Positions 2,866 through 13,182 of a DNA stretch of 54,316 nt are shown piece after piece. Position 1 is the first letter of the stretch. Each line of letters begins with the position of its first letter. The translations under genes and the position numbers were made by a program. The notes beneath the pieces are model-generated. The model ran no database searches. It had not been told where the DNA came from and was given only the letters and a program-made list of their open reading frames with translations. Origin of the DNA: Candidatus Coprenecus stercoripullorum (lineage in GTDB: Bacteria > Bacteroidota > Bacteroidia > Bacteroidales > UBA932); contig DVLA01000082.1 of NCBI GenBank assembly GCA_018715745.1, forward strand, positions 1 to 54,316. Reading direction: 5' to 3'.

Positions 2866-4125
2866 TCATTTGCAATATACGGTCAGAATATCGTCCCATG
2901 ACGTAGTGTAGGCCGGTGAAAGGTGCTCCCTGTGCATTCTGATTCCATTGGCTGACATGGATGCGAGTACAACATGGGAGTCCGTACTGTTGATTTTGTC
3001 TATGGCTTCCATCAGCCTGCTGTGCTTTTCCCTGTCGGTTGTATCGAAGAACGAAAGCTGGACCTCCGAGGCGGGGATGATGTTTCCGAGTATTATGCCG
3101 GCCCTTTTGCATGTCCCGCCGGCCCGCCAGTGGATTTCGTGTGTCAGGGACATTGCAGCTCTGTTGATTTCAATGGTACTGTCGGTGGCAACTGGAAGCA
3201 GTGCCGTCCTGGCATCTGTCTGCCTGTAGCCTGTGGACCGGCCGCCGAATGAAATGAAAACGCTAACGCTTTGCGCGCAGGAGGCCTGCCTGCGCAGTTT
3301 TTCTACTGCGGACGAGCAGAATACGGATATCTGGGATGAAAGGGTTTCCATGTCCTCTATGCCTTCGGAAAAAGTCCTTGAAAACATTATCTGTTTTTTC
3401 GGCGGCCTTATGTCCTCGAATTCTATGGACGGTATGCCCTGCAGCTCGCACCATGTCCTTGCCCCCGGAGCGCCCATGAGTGATGATGCCCACTGCCTGC
3501 CTTTGCGGCGGAAATCTCCTGCCGTGAAGATCCCGTGATAATCCCTCAGCTGCCGGGAATATTTTCTCCCGATACCCCACACGTCCTCAATCGGGAATCT
3601 GTCTAAAACCATAGTTATGTCCTCAGGCCGGTACATGTAGCACCCTCCCTGAAGCCTGGGGTATTTTTTGCACAGTTTGGAGGCGATTTTCGCCAGAGTC
3701 TTTGTCGGGGCTACGCCGATGCTTACAGGGATGCCAGTGCCCCTGCGGCATGTTTTGGAGAGGTTTTTTGCCCATAAATCGAAATCCGTGCCCTCCATTC
3801 CGTTCAAGTCGACGAAAGACTCGTCTATGGAATATACTTCTATGGCAGGGGAAGCGTCGGCTATGATTCTCTGGACCCTTTTGGACATGTCGCCGTACAG
3901 GGAGAAGTTGGAAGAAAATACGGTAACAGCGCCCGATTCGATCAGATGTCTGAATTCGAATACGGGCTGTCCCATTCTTATGCCGAGCTTCTTCGCTTCG
4001 TTCGACCTGGAGATGGCGCATCCGTCGTTATTGGACAGTACTACTACGGGTTTGCCTTCCAGATCGGGTCTGAAGACACGCTCGCAGCTTACAAAGAAAT
4101 TGTTGCAGTCGGCAAGGGCGAACAT
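2866..4125 (-). CDS. umuC: Y-family DNA polymerase, UmuC-like (Pol V catalytic subunit)
   Basis: 419 residues, near the usual 422 of UmuC. It carries the Y-family catalytic signature: first metal-binding Asp at residue 6 (ALADCNNFF) and the motif SIDESFVDL with Asp101-Glu102. The UmuC C-terminal part follows, ending in a region with FFDT that resembles a beta-clamp-binding motif. The enzyme copies damaged DNA with low fidelity after SOS induction, as a complex with two processed UmuD chains. umuD lies 11 bp upstream. No SOS box could be recognised in front of the operon, because the Bacteroidota LexA site is not well enough defined for me to call by eye. Confidence 0.95.
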   Translation of the reverse strand: MFALADCNNFFVSCERVFRPDLEGKPVVVLSNNDGCAISRSNEAKKLGIRMGQPVFEFRHLIESGAVTVFSSNFSLYGDMSKRVQRIIADASPAIEVYSIDESFVDLNGMEGTDFDLWAKNLSKTCRRGTGIPVSIGVAPTKTLAKIASKLCKKYPRLQGGCYMYRPEDITMVLDRFPIEDVWGIGRKYSRQLRDYHGIFTAGDFRRKGRQWASSLMGAPGARTWCELQGIPSIEFEDIRPPKKQIMFSRTFSEGIEDMETLSSQISVFCSSAVEKLRRQASCAQSVSVFISFGGRSTGYRQTDARTALLPVATDSTIEINRAAMSLTHEIHWRAGGTCKRAGIILGNIIPASEVQLSFFDTTDREKHSRLMEAIDKINSTDSHVVLASMSANGIRMHREHLSPAYTTSWDDILTVYCK

Positions 4126-4136
4126 TGTGCGGCCGG

Positions 4137-4529
4137 TTATACCTTTTTGATGACGTAGCGTACTATGCCCCAGATAGTCAGTTCGTCTCCCTCGCGTATC
4201 GTGACAGGGCGGTATCTAGGGTTGGACGGGACCAGTGTGATGCTATTGTCCCTTATCCGCAGCCTTTTGACTGTAAATTCGCCGTTGATGAAACATACGG
4301 CTATGGCTCCGTCCCTCGGCTCTTCAGATTTGTCGATGACAAGGATATCCCCGTCCCGGATGCCGTCGCCTTCCATACTGTCTCCGCTTGTACGTGCAAA
4401 GAATGTGGAGGCCGGGTTTTTGACTATCAGCTTGTTGATATCAAGGGAAGTCCCGGTAGTATCTTCGGCGGGAGACGGGAAGCCTGCATGGACGGACTCG
4501 AAGAGCAGGGTATCAGATTGACTCTCCAT
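4137..4529 (-). CDS. umuD: UmuD-like self-cleaving subunit of Pol V (S24 peptidase)
   Basis: 130 residues. A LexA/UmuD-type serine protease fold with cleavage site Ala15-Gly16 (HAGFPSP), nucleophile Ser51 in SGDSMEGD and general base Lys88 in GEFTVKRL. The spacing (36 from cleavage site to Ser, 37 from Ser to Lys) equals that of E. coli UmuD, so self-processing to UmuD' should work. The start codon overlaps the stop of the upstream thioesterase by one base (TAATG), implying translational coupling, and umuC follows after 11 bp. Confidence 0.95.
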   Translation of the reverse strand: MESQSDTLLFESVHAGFPSPAEDTTGTSLDINKLIVKNPASTFFARTSGDSMEGDGIRDGDILVIDKSEEPRDGAIAVCFINGEFTVKRLRIRDNSITLVPSNPRYRPVTIREGDELTIWGIVRYVIKKV

Positions 4530-4915
4530 TATTTGAGTTTGGCGAGGAACTTGTCCACCTTGATGATGAAGCGTTCATGCGTACCGCTGGCTATCTCGCC
4601 TTTGGAGTCGCATGCCGTGACATCGAATACCAGCCGGCGTCCGTCTATTTCCTTGAGTATCGCTGTGGCTGTAATTGTTTCGCCTATCGGGGATGCCTTG
4701 GTGTGCGCTATGTCCACTCTTGTGCCTACAGTAGACAGTCCTTCCTCAAGAAGGCCGTTTACGGCGTAGCAGGCGGCCATTTCCATGTAGGCTACAACTG
4801 CCGGTGTAGCGAATACGTCCAGTGCCCCTGAGCCCATAAGCGATGCACAGTTCTCCTTGCATACCTTGGTTGTCGATGTTCCGGAGATTCCTATTTTTAT
4901 GTCTTCTGTTGCCAT
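4529..4915 (-). CDS. Hotdog-fold thioesterase, FlK-like
   Basis: 128 residues of single-domain hotdog fold. The phrases VFATPAVVAYMEMAA and GTRVDIAHTKASPIG match the family of fluoroacetyl-CoA-thioesterase-like proteins (FlK-like), which hydrolyse small acyl-CoAs. The true substrate cannot be read from sequence. It heads the group with umuD and umuC, sharing one base (TAATG) with umuD. That is an odd partner for a DNA-damage operon and may only reflect shared transcription. It lies about 110 bp after the vor operon on the same strand, but a strong terminator separates the two. Confidence 0.8.
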   Translation of the reverse strand: MATEDIKIGISGTSTTKVCKENCASLMGSGALDVFATPAVVAYMEMAACYAVNGLLEEGLSTVGTRVDIAHTKASPIGETITATAILKEIDGRRLVFDVTACDSKGEIASGTHERFIIKVDKFLAKLK

Positions 4916-4955: not shown

Positions 4956-5004
4956 TTATAAAAGCGGCATACGCGCGGTACTTTTCCCGAACGTATGCCG
5001 CTTT
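4956..5004 (-). terminator. Intrinsic terminator of the vor operon
   Basis: A perfect 13-bp inverted repeat (AAAGCGGCATACG at 4961-4973, complement at 4992-5004) is followed on the minus strand by TTTTATAAAT. It starts 25 bp after the vorC stop, as expected for a rho-independent terminator. Confidence 0.8.
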
Positions 5005-5012
5005 CGGCTTTT

Positions 5013-5028: not shown

Positions 5029-5574
5029 TTATCTTACTTTTTCAACGGCTTCCATACCTAACTTTACGGCCTGCTCATTCATGGGAATGAGGTTGTGATG
5101 GCGCGGGGGAAGTGATTTCTTCAAACCTGCGGTAACATTCTCCATGGATACGATGGGCTTGACTTTAAGGAATGCACCGAGCACTATCATGTTGTATGCT
5201 TTAGCATTACCCATCTTGGCTGCTTCGTCCGCCGCTGCAATCCTGTAAATGGATATGTCCGTACGGGTGGGATGGTGGGTTATTCCGTTCGGGTCATATA
5301 TGAGAAGGCCTCCCGGTTTAACCTTTGACTCGAATTTGTCCAAAGACTGCTGGTTGAGTATGATAGCGGTATCGAACTTGCTCAATATCGGAGAGCTGAT
5401 TTTCTTGTCGCTCAGAATCACGCTCACGTTGCAAGTGCCGCCGCGCATTTCAGGACCGTAGGAAGGCATCCATGCCACTTCCTGATCCTGCATGATTCCG
5501 GAATACGCCAGAATTTTCCCCATGGAAAGTACACCCTGACCGCCGAAACCTGCAATTATTATTTCTTCTTTCAT
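5029..5574 (-). CDS. vorC: 2-oxoacid:ferredoxin oxidoreductase, gamma subunit
   Basis: 181 residues, a complete gamma chain of the 2-oxoacid:acceptor oxidoreductase family. It begins with the typical IIIAGFGGQGVLSMGK and contains PSYGPEMRGGT, the segment that contacts the CoA side of the active site. It works with the alpha and beta subunits and the ferredoxin-like delta subunit encoded upstream. It is the last gene of the operon, 42 bp after vorA, and is followed by a strong terminator. The set is assigned to 2-ketoisovalerate rather than 2-oxoglutarate mainly from the alpha subunit. Confidence 0.88.
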   Translation of the reverse strand: MKEEIIIAGFGGQGVLSMGKILAYSGIMQDQEVAWMPSYGPEMRGGTCNVSVILSDKKISSPILSKFDTAIILNQQSLDKFESKVKPGGLLIYDPNGITHHPTRTDISIYRIAAADEAAKMGNAKAYNMIVLGAFLKVKPIVSMENVTAGLKKSLPPRHHNLIPMNEQAVKLGMEAVEKVR

Positions 5575-5616
5575 GTTTTTATCAATTATCAGTTAAATTA
5601 TTTCTTGTGGACAAGA

Positions 5617-6378
5617 CTACCTGTCTTTCATGTCTCCGAGAGGATAGAAGGGGAACATGTTCTCTTCCATCCACTTGTTGGCCTGAACAGGAGTTACTTT
5701 CCATCCTGAGTTACATGTGCTGACAACCTCTACGAAAGAGGTGCCCTTCTTCATCATGGAGTTCTCGAATGCCTTGCGGATGGCTTTCTTTGTCTTGCGT
5801 ACCGCCGCCGGGTTCTGTACCGACTGGCGGGTTACATAACATGTGCCTTCAAGCTGGGCTATAAGCTCGGTTATCTTCAGCGGGTAACCGTTGAGTTCGG
5901 CCTTACGTCCGTAAGGGGTAGTGGCCGTAACCTGTCCCAGCAGTGTAGTAGGGGCCATCTGTCCGCCGGTCATACCGTATATTGCATTGTTGATGAAGAT
6001 GATGACTATGTTCTCACCTCTGTTGCAGGCGTGCATTACCTCGGCCGTACCGATAGATGCGAGGTCACCGTCCCCCTGATACGTAAACACATATTTGTCG
6101 GGCATGAGCCTTTTTGTGGCGGTAGCAAGAGCCGGGGCCCTGCCGTGGGCTGCCTGCTGCCAGTCTATATCCAGATAATTGTATGCGAAGACGGAACATC
6201 CTACAGGGGATATGCCTATTGTCTTGTCCTGTATGCCCATTTCCTCGATGACCTCGGCTATGACTTTATGCACCACGCCGTGTGAACATCCCGGGCAGTA
6301 ATGCAGGATATTGTCTTTGAGTAAGGCGGTTTTACCGTAAACCTTGTTTTCGGGTCTGATTATATCTTGTATTTCCAT
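5617..6378 (-). CDS. vorA: 2-oxoacid:ferredoxin oxidoreductase, beta subunit (TPP-binding)
   Basis: 253 residues. It shows CPGCSHG (28-34), the GDGD motif that starts the thiamine-diphosphate/Mg site (102-105) and the matching NN pair (130-131). The beta chain holds the cofactor that attacks the 2-oxo acid and releases CO2, passing electrons towards ferredoxin. It starts 8 bp after vorB. Beta chains of 2-oxoglutarate and 2-ketoisovalerate enzymes are similar, so the substrate is taken from the neighbouring alpha subunit and the synthetase in the same operon. Symbols for alpha and beta are swapped between some databases. Confidence 0.88.
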   Translation of the reverse strand: MEIQDIIRPENKVYGKTALLKDNILHYCPGCSHGVVHKVIAEVIEEMGIQDKTIGISPVGCSVFAYNYLDIDWQQAAHGRAPALATATKRLMPDKYVFTYQGDGDLASIGTAEVMHACNRGENIVIIFINNAIYGMTGGQMAPTTLLGQVTATTPYGRKAELNGYPLKITELIAQLEGTCYVTRQSVQNPAAVRKTKKAIRKAFENSMMKKGTSFVEVVSTCNSGWKVTPVQANKWMEENMFPFYPLGDMKDR

Positions 6379-6386
6379 AATGCCGG

Positions 6387-7463
6387 TTATTTAATTGTTT
6401 TCATAAAGGCCTCGAGAATTTCCTCGGGATCCGGAATCATGCCTCCCTGACGTCCGTAGAAATTGACAGGAATACGTCCGTTTACTACCAGCCTGATGTC
6501 TTCTACCATCTGGCCGGCATTGAGTTCCAGGGAAATAATGCTTTTCAGCTGTGGAACCAGAGAATCAATCTCCTTCTTGGGGAACGGATAGAGGGTAATC
6601 GGACGCAACAGTCCGAGGCGGATGCCATGTTCGCGGGCCATGTCCACGACTGTTTCGCCGATACGGGACATACAGCCGAATGCGACAATCAGATGCTCGG
6701 CATCTTCAGTCCTGTAGGTTGAATATCTCACTTCATTGGCCTCGATTTCGGCATATTTTTTCTGAAGTTTGATATTGAAGTTCTCCTGTACCTGAGGATC
6801 AAGGGCAAGGGATGTTATCGTGTTGGACGGCCTGTTCAGTTTCCCTGTGGTTGCCCATGAGTCGCAAAGGGCGCGGATTTCAGCTTCTGTCCTGCGCGGT
6901 TTGGACGGCCTTACTTCCACTTTCTCCATCATCTGCCCAATAACGCCGTCACCGAGAATCATGGCAGGGTTGCGGTATTTGAAAGCCAGCTCGAAAGCGA
7001 GATCGACAAAATCATACATGTCCTGTGCGGAAGCCGGAGCCAGTACTATGGGATGATAGTCGCCGTGTCCTCCGCCCTTCACAGCCTGGAAGTAGTCTCC
7101 CTGGCTGGGCTGTATCGTACCGAGTCCCGGGCCGCCGCGCATTACGTTTACTACGACACAAGGGAGTTCGGTACCGGCTATGTAGCTGAGCCCTTCGCAC
7201 ATGAGGCTTATTCCGGGGCTGGATGACGAGGTCATTACCTTCTTGCCGCAGCATGCCCCTCCATAGACCATGTTAATAGATGATGTTTCGCTTTCCGCCT
7301 GAAGTACAACCATTCCGGTCGTCTCCCAGGGCTGCTCTTTCATAAGAGTCTCCATCACTTCTGACTGGGGAGTGATAGGGTAACCGAAATAACCGTCGCA
7401 TCCGCAGTTTATCGCCCCGTATGCAATGGCTTCATTACCCTTCATAAGAATCTTTTCTGCCAT
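6387..7463 (-). CDS. vorB: 2-ketoisovalerate:ferredoxin oxidoreductase, alpha subunit
   Basis: 358 residues, the stand-alone alpha chain with the pyrimidine-binding domain at the N-terminus (GYFGYPITPQSEV, QAESETSSINMVYGGACCG) and a C-terminal transketolase-like domain. Length and wording fit the subunit called VorB in anaerobes, and differ from the longer gamma-alpha fusions used for 2-oxoglutarate in many Bacteroidota. Reaction: branched-chain 2-oxo acid + CoA + oxidised ferredoxin to acyl-CoA + CO2 + reduced ferredoxin. It starts 12 bp after the delta subunit gene. A 2-oxoglutarate substrate is the main alternative. Confidence 0.85.
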   Translation of the reverse strand: MAEKILMKGNEAIAYGAINCGCDGYFGYPITPQSEVMETLMKEQPWETTGMVVLQAESETSSINMVYGGACCGKKVMTSSSSPGISLMCEGLSYIAGTELPCVVVNVMRGGPGLGTIQPSQGDYFQAVKGGGHGDYHPIVLAPASAQDMYDFVDLAFELAFKYRNPAMILGDGVIGQMMEKVEVRPSKPRRTEAEIRALCDSWATTGKLNRPSNTITSLALDPQVQENFNIKLQKKYAEIEANEVRYSTYRTEDAEHLIVAFGCMSRIGETVVDMAREHGIRLGLLRPITLYPFPKKEIDSLVPQLKSIISLELNAGQMVEDIRLVVNGRIPVNFYGRQGGMIPDPEEILEAFMKTIK

Positions 7464-7475
7464 ATTGCTGATAAT

Positions 7476-7697
7476 TTAAATTTTAACTCTGTAAACAGTT
7501 ATAACCGCATCCGGGCAGACTGTCGCACAGTTGGTGCAGCCCGTACAATTTTCCGGATTGGCCATATAAAGATAATTGTAACCTTTTCCGTTGACCTCAT
7601 GGGACAACGCAATTGTGTTTGTAGGGCAATTTACGACGCATACGCCGCAACCTTTGCACCTTTCCTTATCTACAACAATAGCTCCTCGTGTTGCCAT
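7476..7697 (-). CDS. vorD: 2-oxoacid:ferredoxin oxidoreductase, delta (2x[4Fe-4S] ferredoxin) subunit
   Basis: 73 residues with two CxxCxxCxxxC motifs: Cys14/17/20/24 and Cys51/54/57/61, each followed by Pro. This is the bacterial-ferredoxin pattern for two [4Fe-4S] clusters that carry electrons out of the oxidoreductase. The start at 7697 (MATRGAIVVD) is preferred over an in-frame upstream ATG at 7817, because the extra 40 residues are unrelated to ferredoxins and overlap, in another frame, a better small gene. It lies 11 bp after that small gene. Confidence 0.93.
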   Translation of the reverse strand: MATRGAIVVDKERCKGCGVCVVNCPTNTIALSHEVNGKGYNYLYMANPENCTGCTNCATVCPDAVITVYRVKI

Positions 7698-7708
7698 AAT
7701 GTTAATTA

Positions 7709-7876
7709 TTAATTGTTTTGTTTTAAAAATCCGAAACCTGAAGAAACACCTTCCACAACATAATCCCACCGGATTATAATACCTATTATAAGTATTATTC
7801 CGAGCCAGAGAAAGCATTTGACAGTAGGGGGCTGGCTGTTATACCAGTCTTTGATTCTGGAAAATGTCTTTTTCAT
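7709..7876 (-). CDS. Small single-span membrane protein (55 residues) in the vor operon
   Basis: An ATG at 7876 opens a 55-codon frame ending in TAA at 7709. The product starts MKKTFSRIKDWYNSQ, has one hydrophobic segment (about 20-36, WLGIILIIGIII) with basic residues on the N-terminal side, and ends GFGFLKQNN. It fits tightly: 6 bp after the synthetase stop and 11 bp before vorD, with no competing use of the gap. The basic, aromatic N-terminus and single helix suggest an inner-membrane protein with its tail inside. I cannot assign it to a named family. A role in anchoring the oxidoreductase or its electron acceptor at the membrane is inference from position only. Confidence 0.72.
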   Translation of the reverse strand: MKKTFSRIKDWYNSQPPTVKCFLWLGIILIIGIIIRWDYVVEGVSSGFGFLKQNN

Positions 7877-7882
7877 GCCCTG

Positions 7883-9937
7883 TCAGTCTTTCTCTATACG
7901 TATCCTGGCATCTACTGCAATGATATTCCTTGCGTTGCCCAGAAGAGGGTTTATATCCATCTCGAATATCTCGGGAGCGGCCTCGCACAGTGCCGATACC
8001 CGCCTTATGACCTCGTTGAACATAACCATGTTCACACCTTCCTTGCCCCTTGTACCTTCAATAAGCTTTATGGATTTGAGACTTCTTATCATCTCGTCGG
8101 CTTCTGTTCTGGATACAGGCGACAGCGAGTGGCTTATATCCTTAAGGGCCTCTACGTATATGCCGCCTAGGCCGCACAGTATGAGATGACCGAACTTGTT
8201 TTCCCTCTTGGCGCCTACAAAGATCTCGGTACCGGTGAGCATGGGCTGTATCAGGACTCCTTTGGCACCGCTGATCTTATCCATCCTGTCGAATTCGGTC
8301 AGCAGGACATTATCGTCCGAAATGTTCAGGGACACTCCTCCGACATCTGACTTGTGTACGGGGCCGATAACCTTCATTACCACGGGGTAGCCTATTTCCC
8401 TTGCGGCCTTTAGGGCATCCTCCTGGGTTGACGCCTTCATTTCCCTGGTCCTGTTTATGCCTGACGCGTCGAGCAGGGCGGCAACCTTTTCCGTAGCAAG
8501 GTACCCGTTTTCGCTTGAATCAATTATCTCTCTTATGAGCTTTTTGTCTACAGGCGGCAGAGTGCGGTCCGTTATCGGTTCGGGCCTGTTCATTATCTTG
8601 GCAATGGCAGACCCCAGAGCCACTTCGTCCGGGAAACTTATGCCTCCCTTTTCCTGGAAAGCCGCAATTTCGTCCCTTGCGTTGACAATGGAGGGGAGGA
8701 CAGGGTATATCGGCTTTTTGGATGATTGTATTTTATTGTAAATCAAATCATATACGTCATATACCGTCGAGAGCCCAGGATTGCCGAATATGATGGTCAT
8801 GGCATCTACATCGAAATCGTTCTCGCACGCGTCCAGTATGTAGCCGAGCTGTTCGGCGGTACCCGTGGCCAGAAAGTCTATGGGATTGGCGACCGAAGAT
8901 CCCAAATACAGTTTCCCGAGCAGCTCATCGGCTTTCCCTCCTGAAATGTGAGGAATCTCTATGCCGTTGGAGGACAGAACGTCGGTCTGCATTACCGCGG
9001 GCCCTCCGGCATGTGTTATAATAGCAATCTTCCTGCCTTTCGGCTCGGGATACATCATGGCGGCGGCTACCGTTACCAGTTCTGTACGGCTGTAGCACCT
9101 TACTATGCCCGTCTTGCGGAAAAGGGCGTCTACTGCCTTGTCGGGGGAGGCAAGCGCACCCGTGTGCGAAGATGCCGCACGGCTTCCGGCTTCGCTGTAT
9201 CCCGCCTTGATAGCTGCGATTCTGGCGCCTTTCTGTATAAGGGAACCGGCATGTCTGGCCAGTTTCTCAGGGTCGCTTATGCTTTCTATATACAGCATGA
9301 TGACCGGGGAACTTTCTCCGGGTACGTAATTTTCGTCAGTATACTGCAGGGCGTCTTCCACCCCTATCTGCGCACAGTTGCCGACCGAAAAGACCTGGCT
9401 GAAATGAAGCCCGAGCTGCATGGCGGCCTCAAGTATGAATACTATTGTGGCCCCGGAACCGGAAATGAGAGTGGCGCCCTTGGGGTTGATTTTCGGTATG
9501 GGCTGAATGAATACCCCCGTGTAATTCTGGGTTATGACCCCGACGCAGTTCGGACCTATGAGACTGGTCCCGGTAGAGTTGCATATCTCGGCGATTTTGC
9601 GTTCGAGTTCTGCCCCTTCTTTGCTGTCTTCCTTGAATCCTGCGGAAAGGATGATGATTGCCTTGCAGGCTTTCTTGTTGCACAGGGTCTCGACTGCCTG
9701 CAGGCACATCTTGGCCGGTATGGCCAGGATGGCGCAGTCCACGGAAGGCAGATCGTTGATATCCCTGTACGAAGGAACGCCCTGAACTGTGTCGCATTTG
9801 GGGTTTACTACATATATTTCTCCTGCATAATTAGTATTGATCAGGTTTTTAAGAGTTGCGCCCCCGGGTTTGTGCGTATCGTCGGAACCTCCTACGACCA
9901 CTATGCTTTTGGGCGCTATCAGTTGTTTGGTGATCAT
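7883..9937 (-). CDS. ADP-forming acyl-CoA (acetate-type) synthetase, fused alpha-beta
   Basis: 684 residues. Order: CoA-binding Rossmann domain (starting APKSIVVVGGS, about 8-130), two ligase-CoA domains (about 150-460) with the phosphorylated His258 in SSHTGALA, and a C-terminal ATP-grasp domain (about 480-684, with GYPVVMKV and HKSDVGGV). This is the fused form of NDP-forming acyl-CoA synthetase, making acid + ATP + CoA from acyl-CoA + ADP + phosphate. The ATG at 9937 is chosen because the Rossmann strand follows at once; an in-frame ATG at 10084 would add 49 residues overlapping the divergent deaminase gene. It is first in an operon with the small membrane protein and vorDBAC, which points to branched-chain acyl-CoAs as substrates besides acetyl-CoA. 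Confidence 0.9.
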   Translation of the reverse strand: MITKQLIAPKSIVVVGGSDDTHKPGGATLKNLINTNYAGEIYVVNPKCDTVQGVPSYRDINDLPSVDCAILAIPAKMCLQAVETLCNKKACKAIIILSAGFKEDSKEGAELERKIAEICNSTGTSLIGPNCVGVITQNYTGVFIQPIPKINPKGATLISGSGATIVFILEAAMQLGLHFSQVFSVGNCAQIGVEDALQYTDENYVPGESSPVIMLYIESISDPEKLARHAGSLIQKGARIAAIKAGYSEAGSRAASSHTGALASPDKAVDALFRKTGIVRCYSRTELVTVAAAMMYPEPKGRKIAIITHAGGPAVMQTDVLSSNGIEIPHISGGKADELLGKLYLGSSVANPIDFLATGTAEQLGYILDACENDFDVDAMTIIFGNPGLSTVYDVYDLIYNKIQSSKKPIYPVLPSIVNARDEIAAFQEKGGISFPDEVALGSAIAKIMNRPEPITDRTLPPVDKKLIREIIDSSENGYLATEKVAALLDASGINRTREMKASTQEDALKAAREIGYPVVMKVIGPVHKSDVGGVSLNISDDNVLLTEFDRMDKISGAKGVLIQPMLTGTEIFVGAKRENKFGHLILCGLGGIYVEALKDISHSLSPVSRTEADEMIRSLKSIKLIEGTRGKEGVNMVMFNEVIRRVSALCEAAPEIFEMDINPLLGNARNIIAVDARIRIEKD

Positions 9938-9952
9938 GTCGTATTTTTTGCG

Positions 9953-9960
9953 CAAAGATA
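9953..9960 (-). promoter_or_regulatory. Possible -7 box of the synthetase-vor operon
   Basis: TATCTTTG on the minus strand matches TAnnTTTG and lies 16 bp ahead of the synthetase ATG. No clear -33 TTTG is seen. Confidence 0.42.
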
Positions 9961-10035: not shown

Positions 10036-11316
10036 ATGTCAGAAAGATTATTGCTGAAGGATGTGGTTTTGAATGGTGTGCCATGCGAGATTCTCATATC
10101 CGGGGGCAGGATAACGGAGATAGGCCGCGGGATAGGTTCTGCGTCCGATGATGTGATAGACTGCATGGGCATGACGGCCATGCCTGCTTTTGTAAACATG
10201 CATACGCATTCGGGAATGACACTGTTCAGGGGTATGGCAGGGGACTGCCCTTTGCATGAGTGGCTTGACAGGGTCTGGAAGGCTGAAGCGCTTATGGGGC
10301 CGGAGATATTCTACTGGGGGACGAAGCTTGCGTGCGTCGAAATGATAAAGTCCGGAACGGCCTGCTTTGCAGATATGTACTGGGATATAGACCGGACTTG
10401 TGAAGCGGTAAGGGAAAGCGGCATGAGGGCGTTGCTGACATATTGTTTCCTTGACGGCGGGGATATGGACAAGGCCGCAAGGCAGAGGGAAGAATGCGGG
10501 AGGATGTACGCCCTGTCACTGGAATGGCCTGACAGAATGAAATTCGGCGTCTCCATCCATGCGCATTATACCGTATGCGATGCTAATATGTTGTGGGCGG
10601 CCGCTTTTGCAAGGGAGCACGGGCTTTTGCTGCAGACACATCTGAGCGAGACGGTAAAGGAAAATGAGGAGCATTATGCAAGGTACGGGATGTCCCCGAC
10701 CCTCAGGTTAGAAGACATGGGCATTCTTGGAAAGAATCTCATAGCTGCGCACTGTCTCTGGCTGGATGACGCGGATGTGGATGCACTCGGACGGCATGGG
10801 GTTACTGCTGTCCACAATATAAATTCAAATCTGAAGCTCTCGTCCGGATACAGGTTCCGGTACAGGGAACTGAAAGCGGCCGGGGCCAACCTGACTATAG
10901 GAACTGACGGAAGCGGTTCTTCGGACAGCCTGGACGTAAGGGAGGCGTTGAAAACGGCGGCCTTAGTACAGAAGGCCTGGCGGGGAGATCCTTCGGCCAT
11001 GCCTGTGGGCGAACTGATGGCAATGGCTACAGTCAATGCCGGCAAGGCCCTCGGGACTTCGGCCGGACTCATAGAGAAAGGGGCCCCTGCAGATATTATG
11101 CTGATCGACACGTCATCGCCCGCCTTTATCCCATGTCACGACATAGCAGCCAATCTTGTCTACTCGGCCAATTCCTCATCGGTGGATACTCTTATATGCG
11201 ATGGCAGGGTATTGATGTACAGGAGAAGAATAGAAGGAGAGGATGTTCTTCTGGAAAAGGCGCGTACGGAAATAAACAGATTTTTTACAAGCAATAGGAT
11301 ATGGACAACAGAATGA
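10036..11316 (+). CDS. mtaD: 5-methylthioadenosine/S-adenosylhomocysteine deaminase
   Basis: 426 residues of the amidohydrolase superfamily. Metal and substrate residues are visible: His56-x-His58 in MHTHSGM, His177 in HAHYT, His202 in QTHLSE, and Asp291 in [10 protein letters not shown], the pattern of MTA/SAH deaminases. The reaction removes the 6-amino group of methylthioadenosine (to methylthioinosine), S-adenosylhomocysteine or adenosine. The next gene is a purine nucleoside phosphorylase, overlapping by 16 bp, then mtnA, which favours MTA as the physiological substrate. Other amidohydrolases (guanine or chlorohydrolase-like) are alternatives, but the neighbours argue for MTA. Confidence 0.85.
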
Positions 11317-12128
11317 CAGCCATTAATGAGGCTTCCGCATATCTTGCGGGGCGGCTTGGCGGGTTCAGGCCTCTTGTCGGGATAATACTCGGCAGCGGAC
11401 TGGGCAGGCTGGCCGAGAAAATCGAGAAACCGATAATTATCAAATACACGGATATACCGCATTTTGCAAAATCCACTGCCATAGGGCACAAAGGGAACTT
11501 CATAGCCGGCATGCTCGGCGGCCGCCCCGTACTCGCCATGCAGGGACGTTTCCACTACTATGAGGGATATTCCATGGATGCGGTAACCCTGCCCGTAAGA
11601 GTCATGGTAAGGCTCGGTATCGGATATCTGTTCGTCTCCAATGCGGCGGGAGGTGTTAATTTCGGTTTCAAGGTAGGGGATCTCATGATTATAAAGGACC
11701 ATATAAACAAATTGCCGAACCCGCTTGTCGGGGCCAACCTCGATGATTTCGGGCCCCGTTTTCCCGATATGACCAGGCCGTACGACCCGGCTCTGATAGC
11801 CAGGGCAGAAGCAATAGGCCGGGAGCTCGGGATAGAGCTGAAGAAAGGAGTATACCTTGCAGGTACCGGACCGAGTTACGAGACGCCTTCGGAATATAAA
11901 TATTTCAGAATGATAGGAGCCGATGCGGTAGGCATGTCTACGATTCCGGAAGTGATTGTGGCCAGGCATTCCTCGATCCCCGTTTTCGGCATGTCGGTCA
12001 TAACGAATGAGGCACATGACGATTATGCGGATGATTTCGAAAATAACGGGGATGATGTGGTGCGTGCCGCGAATGCCGCTGCGGACAGGATGGGGAGCAT
12101 AGTCGTTAAACTTATTGAGAGCCTGTAG
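11301..12128 (+). CDS. Purine-nucleoside phosphorylase (possible methylthioinosine phosphorylase)
   Basis: 275 residues of the trimeric PNP/MTAP family. It shows ILGSGLG near residue 29, GHKGN (phosphate-binding region), the ribose-phosphate segment [17 protein letters not shown], and GMSTIPEVI. The base-binding stretch [10 protein letters not shown] has Asn, as in 6-oxopurine-specific PNPs, rather than the Ser-Asp typical of MTA phosphorylase. So inosine, guanosine or methylthioinosine are expected substrates, not adenine nucleosides. That fits an upstream deaminase making the 6-oxo substrate. It overlaps the deaminase by 16 bp and mtnA by up to 14 bp. Confidence 0.9.
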
Positions 12129-13182
12129 GATATTGGAGGGGATATTCAAATACGATCCGGTCTCTTTTGACGAAGCGGCCTCGTGCGCGGTAATCCTGGA
12201 CCAGTCACGGCTTCCGTGGGAGAAGTCTTTTTTACGGATAGACACGGCCGAAGGCATGTACGATGCAATCAGGCAATTGAAAGTAAGGGGCGCACCTGCC
12301 ATAGGCATTGCGGCTGCTTTCGGACTGTATGCCGTAGCGTTAAAGGCCGACGACGAGTCGCTGCGCGATACTTTTTTCGAGGCATCGGCATTATTGCGGT
12401 CATCACGCCCTACGGCAGTGAACCTGTCGTATGCCCTGGACAGGATGGAGGCCTGCTACAGGGAGCACGGGGAACTGCCATCCGGAAGGATAAGGGTGGC
12501 TTTGCGCAACGAAGCGTTCAGGATCAAGGAGGAAGATGCCGCCATGTGCATGTCTGTCGCTATGAACGCCCTGCCGCTTATCGAAAGGAGCGGCCTGCGT
12601 ATATTGACACACTGCAATGCGGGGCATCTGGCCGTATCGAGGCTCGGTACGGCCCTCGGGCCGGTATATTTGGCCATGGCCAAAGGGCTTTCCCCGAAGG
12701 TCTATGCCGATGAAACGAGACCGCTGTTTCAGGGGGCGAGACTGACAGCCTTTGAGCTAATGGAGGCCGGGATTGACGTTACGCTTATCTGCGACAACAT
12801 GGCTTCGTACGTGATGGGGAAGGGCTTGGTGGACGTGGTCCTGACAGGTTGCGACAGGATAGCTGCAAACGGGGATGTCGCCAACAAGATAGGTACGTCG
12901 TCGGTGGCGATCCTGGCAAGGCACTACGGCATACCTTTTTATGTTCTCGGGCCGTCGTCGACTATAGACCCGGCCTGCCCGGACGGGAGTGCAGTGGAAA
13001 TAGAGCAGAGGGATGGCGCAGAGGTTACCTCCATGTATTTTGCCAGGCCCGTGGCGCCTGCGGGTGTCAAGGTGCTTAATCCGGCGTTCGACATAACCCC
13101 TGCGGAGATGATAACGGCCATAATTACAGAACGCGGCGTTTTTTATCCGCCGTATGACTTTACAGGAAGAAGAGATGGTTAA
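12115..13182 (+). CDS. mtnA: S-methyl-5-thioribose-1-phosphate isomerase
   Basis: About 355 residues. It contains KVRGAPAIG, the catalytic Cys167 in THCNAG and Asp247 in [18 protein letters not shown], and [16 protein letters not shown], all typical of MtnA. It isomerises methylthioribose-1-phosphate to methylthioribulose-1-phosphate. No ATG exists ahead of the conserved region, so translation must start at a rare codon: TTG at 12115 (used here, overlapping the phosphorylase by 14 bp) or TTG at 12133. The related ribose-1,5-bisphosphate isomerases share both catalytic residues and are the main alternative, but the order deaminase-phosphorylase-isomerase favours MtnA. Confidence 0.9.

Follow-up and report, generated by a model that had tools for sequence, protein, structure and literature searches.

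The 54,316-nucleotide stretch analysed here (the window) is contig DVLA01000082.1 of Candidatus Coprenecus stercoripullorum, a member of the Bacteroidales; the source genome is a draft of 1.69 Mb, 86% complete. Six genes on its minus strand encode, in order, a predicted ADP-forming acyl-CoA synthetase (ACS), a 55-residue membrane protein, and the ferredoxin (delta), alpha, beta and gamma subunits of an oxidoreductase of the 2-ketoisovalerate:ferredoxin type (VOR). The operon is probably a reversible branched acyl-CoA node, a reading which starts from the observed gene content, gene order, family membership, catalytic histidines and missing basic residue of 2-oxoglutarate enzymes. The features of the locus are as follows.

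7883..9937, minus strand: putative ADP(NDP)-forming acyl-CoA synthetase (ACS), fused alpha–beta type, 684 residues (PF13380, PF13607, PF13549; phmmer matches 8wzu, 9y43, 2csu, 4xyl)
7709..7876, minus strand: single-helix membrane microprotein, 55 residues, core LIIGIIxRWDYI (outside the Pfam and NCBIfam families; kept in relatives)
7476..7697, minus strand: two-cluster ferredoxin, delta subunit, 73 residues (Fer4 models over cut-off)
6387..7463, minus strand: alpha subunit, VorB type, YPITP motif, 358 residues (NF005507 VorB)
5617..6378, minus strand: beta (thiamine diphosphate) subunit, 253 residues, F64 (PF02775; alignment to 5b46, 6n2n and 8ys5; residue survey)
5029..5574, minus strand: gamma subunit, 181 residues (PF01558, 121.2 bits)
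4960..5005, minus strand: hairpin, likely terminator, 15-bp outer stem, short T-run (fold of a 96-nt stretch)
9953..9960, minus strand: putative Bacteroidota −7 promoter element TATCTTTG (TAnnTTTG motif)

The genes are separated by 6, 11, 12, 8 and 42 bp, and ACS through gamma may be transcribed jointly. Coordinates, domain matches and open reading frames all agree with the gene content and spacing given in a first-pass annotation made from the sequence alone. That annotation also saw a strong terminator. A hairpin with a 15-bp stem does lie 3′ of the gamma gene, in a 96-nt stretch with a folding energy of −40.4 kcal/mol; its strength is plausible rather than demonstrated, because the T-run is only TTTT and lies partly within the stem, the hairpin is nearly symmetrical, and 4960–5005 is absent from the output of a terminator scan. 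Upstream, one copy of TAnnTTTG, which we take to be a Bacteroidota promoter motif, ends 15 bp ahead of the ACS start codon. The coding strand between 5029 and 10035 holds no other copy, yet the motif is at chance level across the window (27 found vs 26.6 expected), and it was rejected as evidence.

Enzyme classes and substrates

ACS carries CoA-binding, succinyl-CoA-ligase-like and ATP-grasp domains, all over the Pfam cut-offs. His258 is present in an SSHTG motif, as had been noted in the first pass, and aligns with the phosphohistidine-site SHTG histidine of solved ADP-forming synthetases, and a further histidine, H528, falls on their HKxD motif. The enzyme is predicted to form ADP and not AMP. 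Its substrate cannot be named from family models, because the best substrate-specific NCBIfam equivalogs—for acetate, 4-hydroxybutyrate and 3-hydroxypropionate—fall far under their cut-offs (387.5 vs 1200, 354.6 vs 1300 and 280.6 vs 1300); a branched acyl-CoA is presumed.

The assignment of the oxidoreductase to the branched-chain (VOR) class is well supported. The alpha subunit passes the curated NCBIfam VorB model NF005507 (541.9 bits, cut-off 399), and the unfused delta, alpha, beta and gamma subunits (D, A, B and C) have the VOR architecture, with thiamine-diphosphate and Fe-S domains in Pfam. The residue two after GCS in the beta subunit is K or R in the 2-oxoacid enzymes 5b46 and 5b48, in the 2-oxoglutarate synthase 8ys5, and in 6n2n, presumably an enzyme using 2-oxoglutarate; in the window it is F64. 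On the strength of work in Sulfolobus we take the basic residue at the beta K49 position to bind the second carboxylate of the substrate. Among 135 related beta subunits (one match per locus, at least 45% identity, weaker matches dropped, near-copies included), position 64 is F in 108, L in 22, M in three and I in two, and basic in none, while R stands at the corresponding position in 21 of 21 KorB paralogues, the source genome’s own KorB among them. Of the two further POR_N matches in the source genome, one is a fused KorA and the other an IorA; KorAB is separate from VOR. Specificity for 2-oxoglutarate was set aside in view of the beta residue survey together with the separate KorAB.

By frame length, the 10 genomes of the genus hold a full PFOR in seven and a partial one in one more, KorA in nine, IorA in 10 and VOR in nine; no PFOR was seen in the source genome’s own draft. 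Given the separate KorAB and IorA, and the PFOR frames of the genus, other 2-oxo acids appear to be served by other enzymes.

A preference of VOR for branched chains is suggested by genomic context. At 13 of 160 loci (orthologous TPR-D-A-B-C; the 160 include the window, and some genomes are present twice), IlvE lies 526 to 574 bp before the alpha gene, separated from it by a TPR gene and D; a 14th locus, L178, has IlvE 3.3 kb away, and all three IlvE proteins tested pass TIGR01123. In other families, a same-strand class-I-like aminotransferase gene stands ahead of D in 19 of the 20 fetched loci with ACS within 15 kb, with another gene between in L047. At L097 and L115, IorA and an aminotransferase gene lie beside the VOR genes on the opposite strand. 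The first-pass call of a 2-ketoisovalerate-type oxidoreductase is borne out by the VorB model, the hydrophobic beta residue and the IlvE neighbours, and the enzyme classes and chemistry of the pair by domain and family matches.

Conservation of the gene pair

The arrangement was followed through 99 genomes of the family and 148 of the order, nearly all of the latter 90% complete or better. At E 0.001, 69 of the 99 family genomes have an ACS match. In 37, ACS and the alpha gene lie within 1 kb on the same strand; the two are on different contigs in 20, with alpha alone in 25 and ACS alone in six, a count which omits six genomes with short partial ACS matches (G014, G033, G051, G066, G079 and G091). 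The comparison of gene order in relatives, proposed as a check in the first pass, thus indicates that the adjacency is not due to chance. Three of the 37 (G017, G021 and G036) carry ACS fragments where contigs end. In another, G003 (locus L025), a decayed ACS with many stops lies upstream of an intact VOR operon.

The 55-residue protein matches none of the Pfam or NCBIfam models. Relatives nevertheless occupy the same place, with ACS on one side and D on the other, in 12 of the 13 fetched family loci with an intact adjacent ACS (missing in L022). Two more were seen: one ahead of D in L026, where there is no ACS, and one following ACS in L044, a long way from VOR. In Bacteroidaceae the small membrane protein is another one, encoded between A and B; in L072–L076 and L079 (Bacteroides, Phocaeicola) the order is TPR-D-A-E-B-C.

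Across the order, at E 1e-100, ACS is found in 118 of 148 genomes and alpha in 138, and VOR is kept even in a 1.2-Mb genome (G180). A housekeeping role fits such a near-universal VOR without adjacent ACS. In none of the 140 genomes with either gene, outside G000 and G005, do ACS and alpha lie within 1 kb; they are within 15 kb in 24 of the 140, from which the 20 neighbourhoods mentioned above were fetched. The flanks fetched for 80 named Bacteroidota loci, at most 7 kb long and in many cases cut off by a contig end, contained no ACS; these loci were found with an alpha-subunit alignment led by another family, and the ranking favours that lead. At L064:4762–5961, in a 1.2-Mb genome, a 399-residue protein, flavodiiron-like by eye, is encoded between D and A of the VOR genes.

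In a tree of 89 alpha subunits, midpoint-rooted for drawing only, the window falls within a family group of 32 (98/88) which contains all 15 ACS-linked sequences; the ACS label requires four changes on the tree. Sequences from the window’s order fall together with those of named Bacteroidaceae and further Bacteroidales. Six IlvE-linked members of the window’s family (L172–L177) cluster with Prevotellaceae instead (100/92), which suggests that their VOR may have been replaced by horizontal transfer.

Direction of flux and competing roles

In the proposed node, VOR would use CoA and oxidised ferredoxin to turn 2-oxoisovalerate, 2-oxoisocaproate or 2-oxo-3-methylvalerate into isobutyryl-, isovaleryl- or 2-methylbutyryl-CoA, yielding CO2 and reduced ferredoxin. 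ACS, via a phosphohistidine at H258, would interconvert acyl-CoA, ADP and Pi with free acid, CoA and ATP. An ample supply of keto acids would lead to acid and ATP; with keto acids scarce, external branched acids would be made into acyl-CoA for membrane-lipid primers or amino acids.

The source organism is probably a branched-chain auxotroph, because three kinds of gene were not found in the genus. ilvC is over cut-off in none of the 10 genomes (four weak matches below it; controls 14 of 14), a class-IV aminotransferase was found in none of the 10 (controls 13 of 14), and at E 1e-60 none of the seven members within the family sample showed a class-I-like aminotransferase, though weaker candidates exist; only four of the 10 drafts are at least 90% complete. 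Across the family, ilvE (9/37 vs 39/62, omitting G048, G077 and G089, which have a partial match only) and ilvC (6/37 vs 27/62) are rarer in genomes with joined ACS–VOR. Restricting the comparison to genomes at least 90% complete leaves a significant difference for ilvE (p = 0.0098) but not for ilvC (p = 0.16). As all these comparisons are uncorrected for kinship, the scarcity of ilvC, ilvE and aminotransferases in ACS–VOR genomes was not used as proof.

In the first-pass annotation the operon was read as a unit dedicated to fermenting branched-chain amino acids; such a unit would run oxidatively at all times, excrete isobutyrate-type acids and gain ATP. The chemistry of the pair agrees with this, as does the closeness of aminotransferase, VOR and ACS genes in other families. 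PorA-dependent breakdown of branched-chain amino acids in Clostridium sporogenes and Parabacteroides merdae, which PMC11984666 (in excerpt) cites from others, points the same way; loss of porA blocks branched-acid formation and was counted for the branched-chain reading in general. A dedicated unit nevertheless seems rather doubtful: no ACS substrate model is reached, all steps are reversible, neither ilvC over cut-off nor a class-IV transaminase was found in the 10 genus genomes, and VOR is near-universal without adjacent ACS, while 30 of 148 order genomes gave no ACS match at E 1e-100. The converse is an anabolic unit, in which ACS spends ATP to activate external branched acids and the acyl-CoA serves either as a primer for iso and anteiso fatty acids or as a substrate that VOR carboxylates reductively, giving keto acids for amino-acid synthesis. 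The genus without ilvC and the scarcer ilvE and ilvC alongside joined ACS–VOR speak for it; so do the rise in iso fatty acids when Prevotella bryantii is fed isobutyrate (PMC7709123, in excerpt) and the rescue of growth by oleic acid in a Bacteroides fragilis kor2 mutant in defined medium (PMC11304471, in excerpt). Amino-acid synthesis would still need a transaminase, none being identified in the genus, and the ilvC difference is lost among the more complete genomes; an anabolic unit also seems rather doubtful.

Other substrates are less probable. The B. fragilis Kor2 genes are annotated as a 2-ketoglutarate oxidoreductase and the mutant regrows with dimethyl-2-ketoglutarate in rich medium (PMC11304471, in excerpt), while the best NCBIfam matches of the window’s delta ferredoxin are OorD, OGOR delta and PorD/KorD, all below cut-off. 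That the operon pairs a 2-oxoglutarate/succinyl-CoA enzyme with a succinyl-CoA-type synthetase is very improbable, however, in view of the beta residue survey, the separate KorAB and the failure of glutamate and glutamine to rescue the same mutant in defined medium (same excerpts). An aryl-pyruvate unit yielding phenylacetate or indoleacetate is kept as a minor and quite improbable rival, because a C. difficile ligase acts on aryl acids (PMC13285125, in excerpt); PaaK-like ligase genes in four of the 20 fetched neighbourhoods and the aromatic preference of some VOR-like enzymes (PMC13290082, in excerpt) favour it, and the genome’s separate IorA, the IorA-like frames in all 10 genus genomes and the IlvE neighbourhoods count against it.

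Several points weigh against a branched acyl-CoA node. The beta, gamma and delta subunits fall under the pyruvate/2-ketoisovalerate cut-offs of NCBIfam (TIGR02177, 109.3 vs 261.9; TIGR02175, 67.4 vs 81.1; TIGR02179, 46.5 vs 60.05), which are a database criterion and not a biochemical one. At the position aligned to beta 64 the pyruvate enzyme 9bt4 carries M, so that 2-oxoglutarate is excluded more firmly than branched-chain use is proven; a hydrophobic residue there cannot tell branched-chain substrates from aryl ones or pyruvate. The IlvE evidence stems from a different VOR clade, since the IlvE-linked sequences group apart from the window. Most order genomes with both genes have ACS unlinked from VOR, and the negative results for class-IV and class-I-like aminotransferases in the genus belong here too. 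According to excerpts, the C. difficile ligase assayed as active on aryl acids sits beside a VOR-type cluster, Cd3c, and is presumably ADP-forming (PMC13285125), and the C. sporogenes VOR also accepts pyruvate and phenylpyruvate, with some VOR-like loci favouring aromatic substrates (PMC13290082).

A tentative extension of the branched acyl-CoA node concerns membrane lipids. The near-universal Bacteroidales VOR may be the maker of isobutyryl-, isovaleryl- and 2-methylbutyryl-CoA primers for iso and anteiso membrane fatty acids, and this may be the function of Kor2AEBG in B. fragilis which is bypassed by oleic acid, Tween 80 or phospholipid; the oleic acid bypass would follow if VOR primes such fatty acids. 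In the window’s family the joined ACS, with the conserved membrane microprotein, could then act as a valve by which branched acids are salvaged into primers or surplus primer is vented as acid and ATP. A 2-ketoisovalerate dehydrogenase (AcoA/AcoB) listed for B. fragilis in the excerpted literature counts against VOR as the only primer source. No earlier proposal of VOR as a source of branched-fatty-acid primers was found among the papers listed, judged by titles and abstract openings.

The operon’s relatives thus suggest a role in membrane-lipid making as much as in fermentation, and a link is drawn between branched-chain acid production and membrane lipid supply. The 2-oxoglutarate annotation of the four-subunit ‘Kor2’ is questioned, as the basic residue is missing and the enzyme looks branched-chain. 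The growth-essential job of Kor2 in B. fragilis, a stated open question, becomes testable by simple feeding.

Just downstream of the hairpin, 4529–4915 (minus strand) encodes an FlK-like (PF22636) thioesterase, which likewise lies 0 to 1.9 kb downstream of the operon in L012, L013 and L015. It is followed on the same strand by a gene pair resembling, by eye, a UmuC-like polymerase (2866–4125) and an S24 peptidase (4137–4529). On the plus strand, at 10036–13182, genes for an amidohydrolase, a purine nucleoside phosphorylase and MtnA follow one another, the products of the latter two passing curated cut-offs; this is likely a methylthioadenosine salvage cluster.

Comparison with known systems

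In Pyrococcus furiosus the ACD and VOR genes occupy separate loci. The pathway chemistry of that pair is the same as that of the window’s operon, but the P. furiosus ACD is of the two-subunit archaeal type (PMC3942289, in excerpt) and the window’s ACS is fused. The VOR of C. sporogenes (porA, CLOSPO_00146–00149) and porA of P. merdae represent a VOR-type enzyme for branched-chain amino acid breakdown, as here; in the excerpted accounts the C. sporogenes enzyme goes with an acyl kinase, whereas the window’s operon starts with an ADP-forming synthetase.

The first pass had implied that a bacterial pairing of the two enzymes is new, which is not supported. In the Peptostreptococcales, according to excerpts of PMC13285125, many VOR-type and IOR-type genes lie near either kinase or ADP-forming ligase genes. 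Clusters of PFOR homologues with a PF13607 ligase there place the same two enzyme types close together; they differ in belonging to another phylum, and in the aryl activity of the ligase assayed beside Cd3c. The exact arrangement of the window was not found among the papers listed in the literature searches.

Closest in gene order is Kor2CDAEBG of B. fragilis (PMC11304471, in excerpt), whose D, A, B and C appear orthologous by that order, with Bacteroides cellulosilyticus L073 (TPR-D-A-E-B-C) as proxy. The link rests on gene order because the loci compared are Bacteroides and Phocaeicola relatives and not B. fragilis itself. Kor2-type loci differ from the window in their TPR gene, in their small membrane protein and in the flanks of the named loci, which are free of ACS over the stretch fetched. 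Seen beside these systems, the operon is a well-conserved pairing of two known enzymes, ordinary in mechanism.

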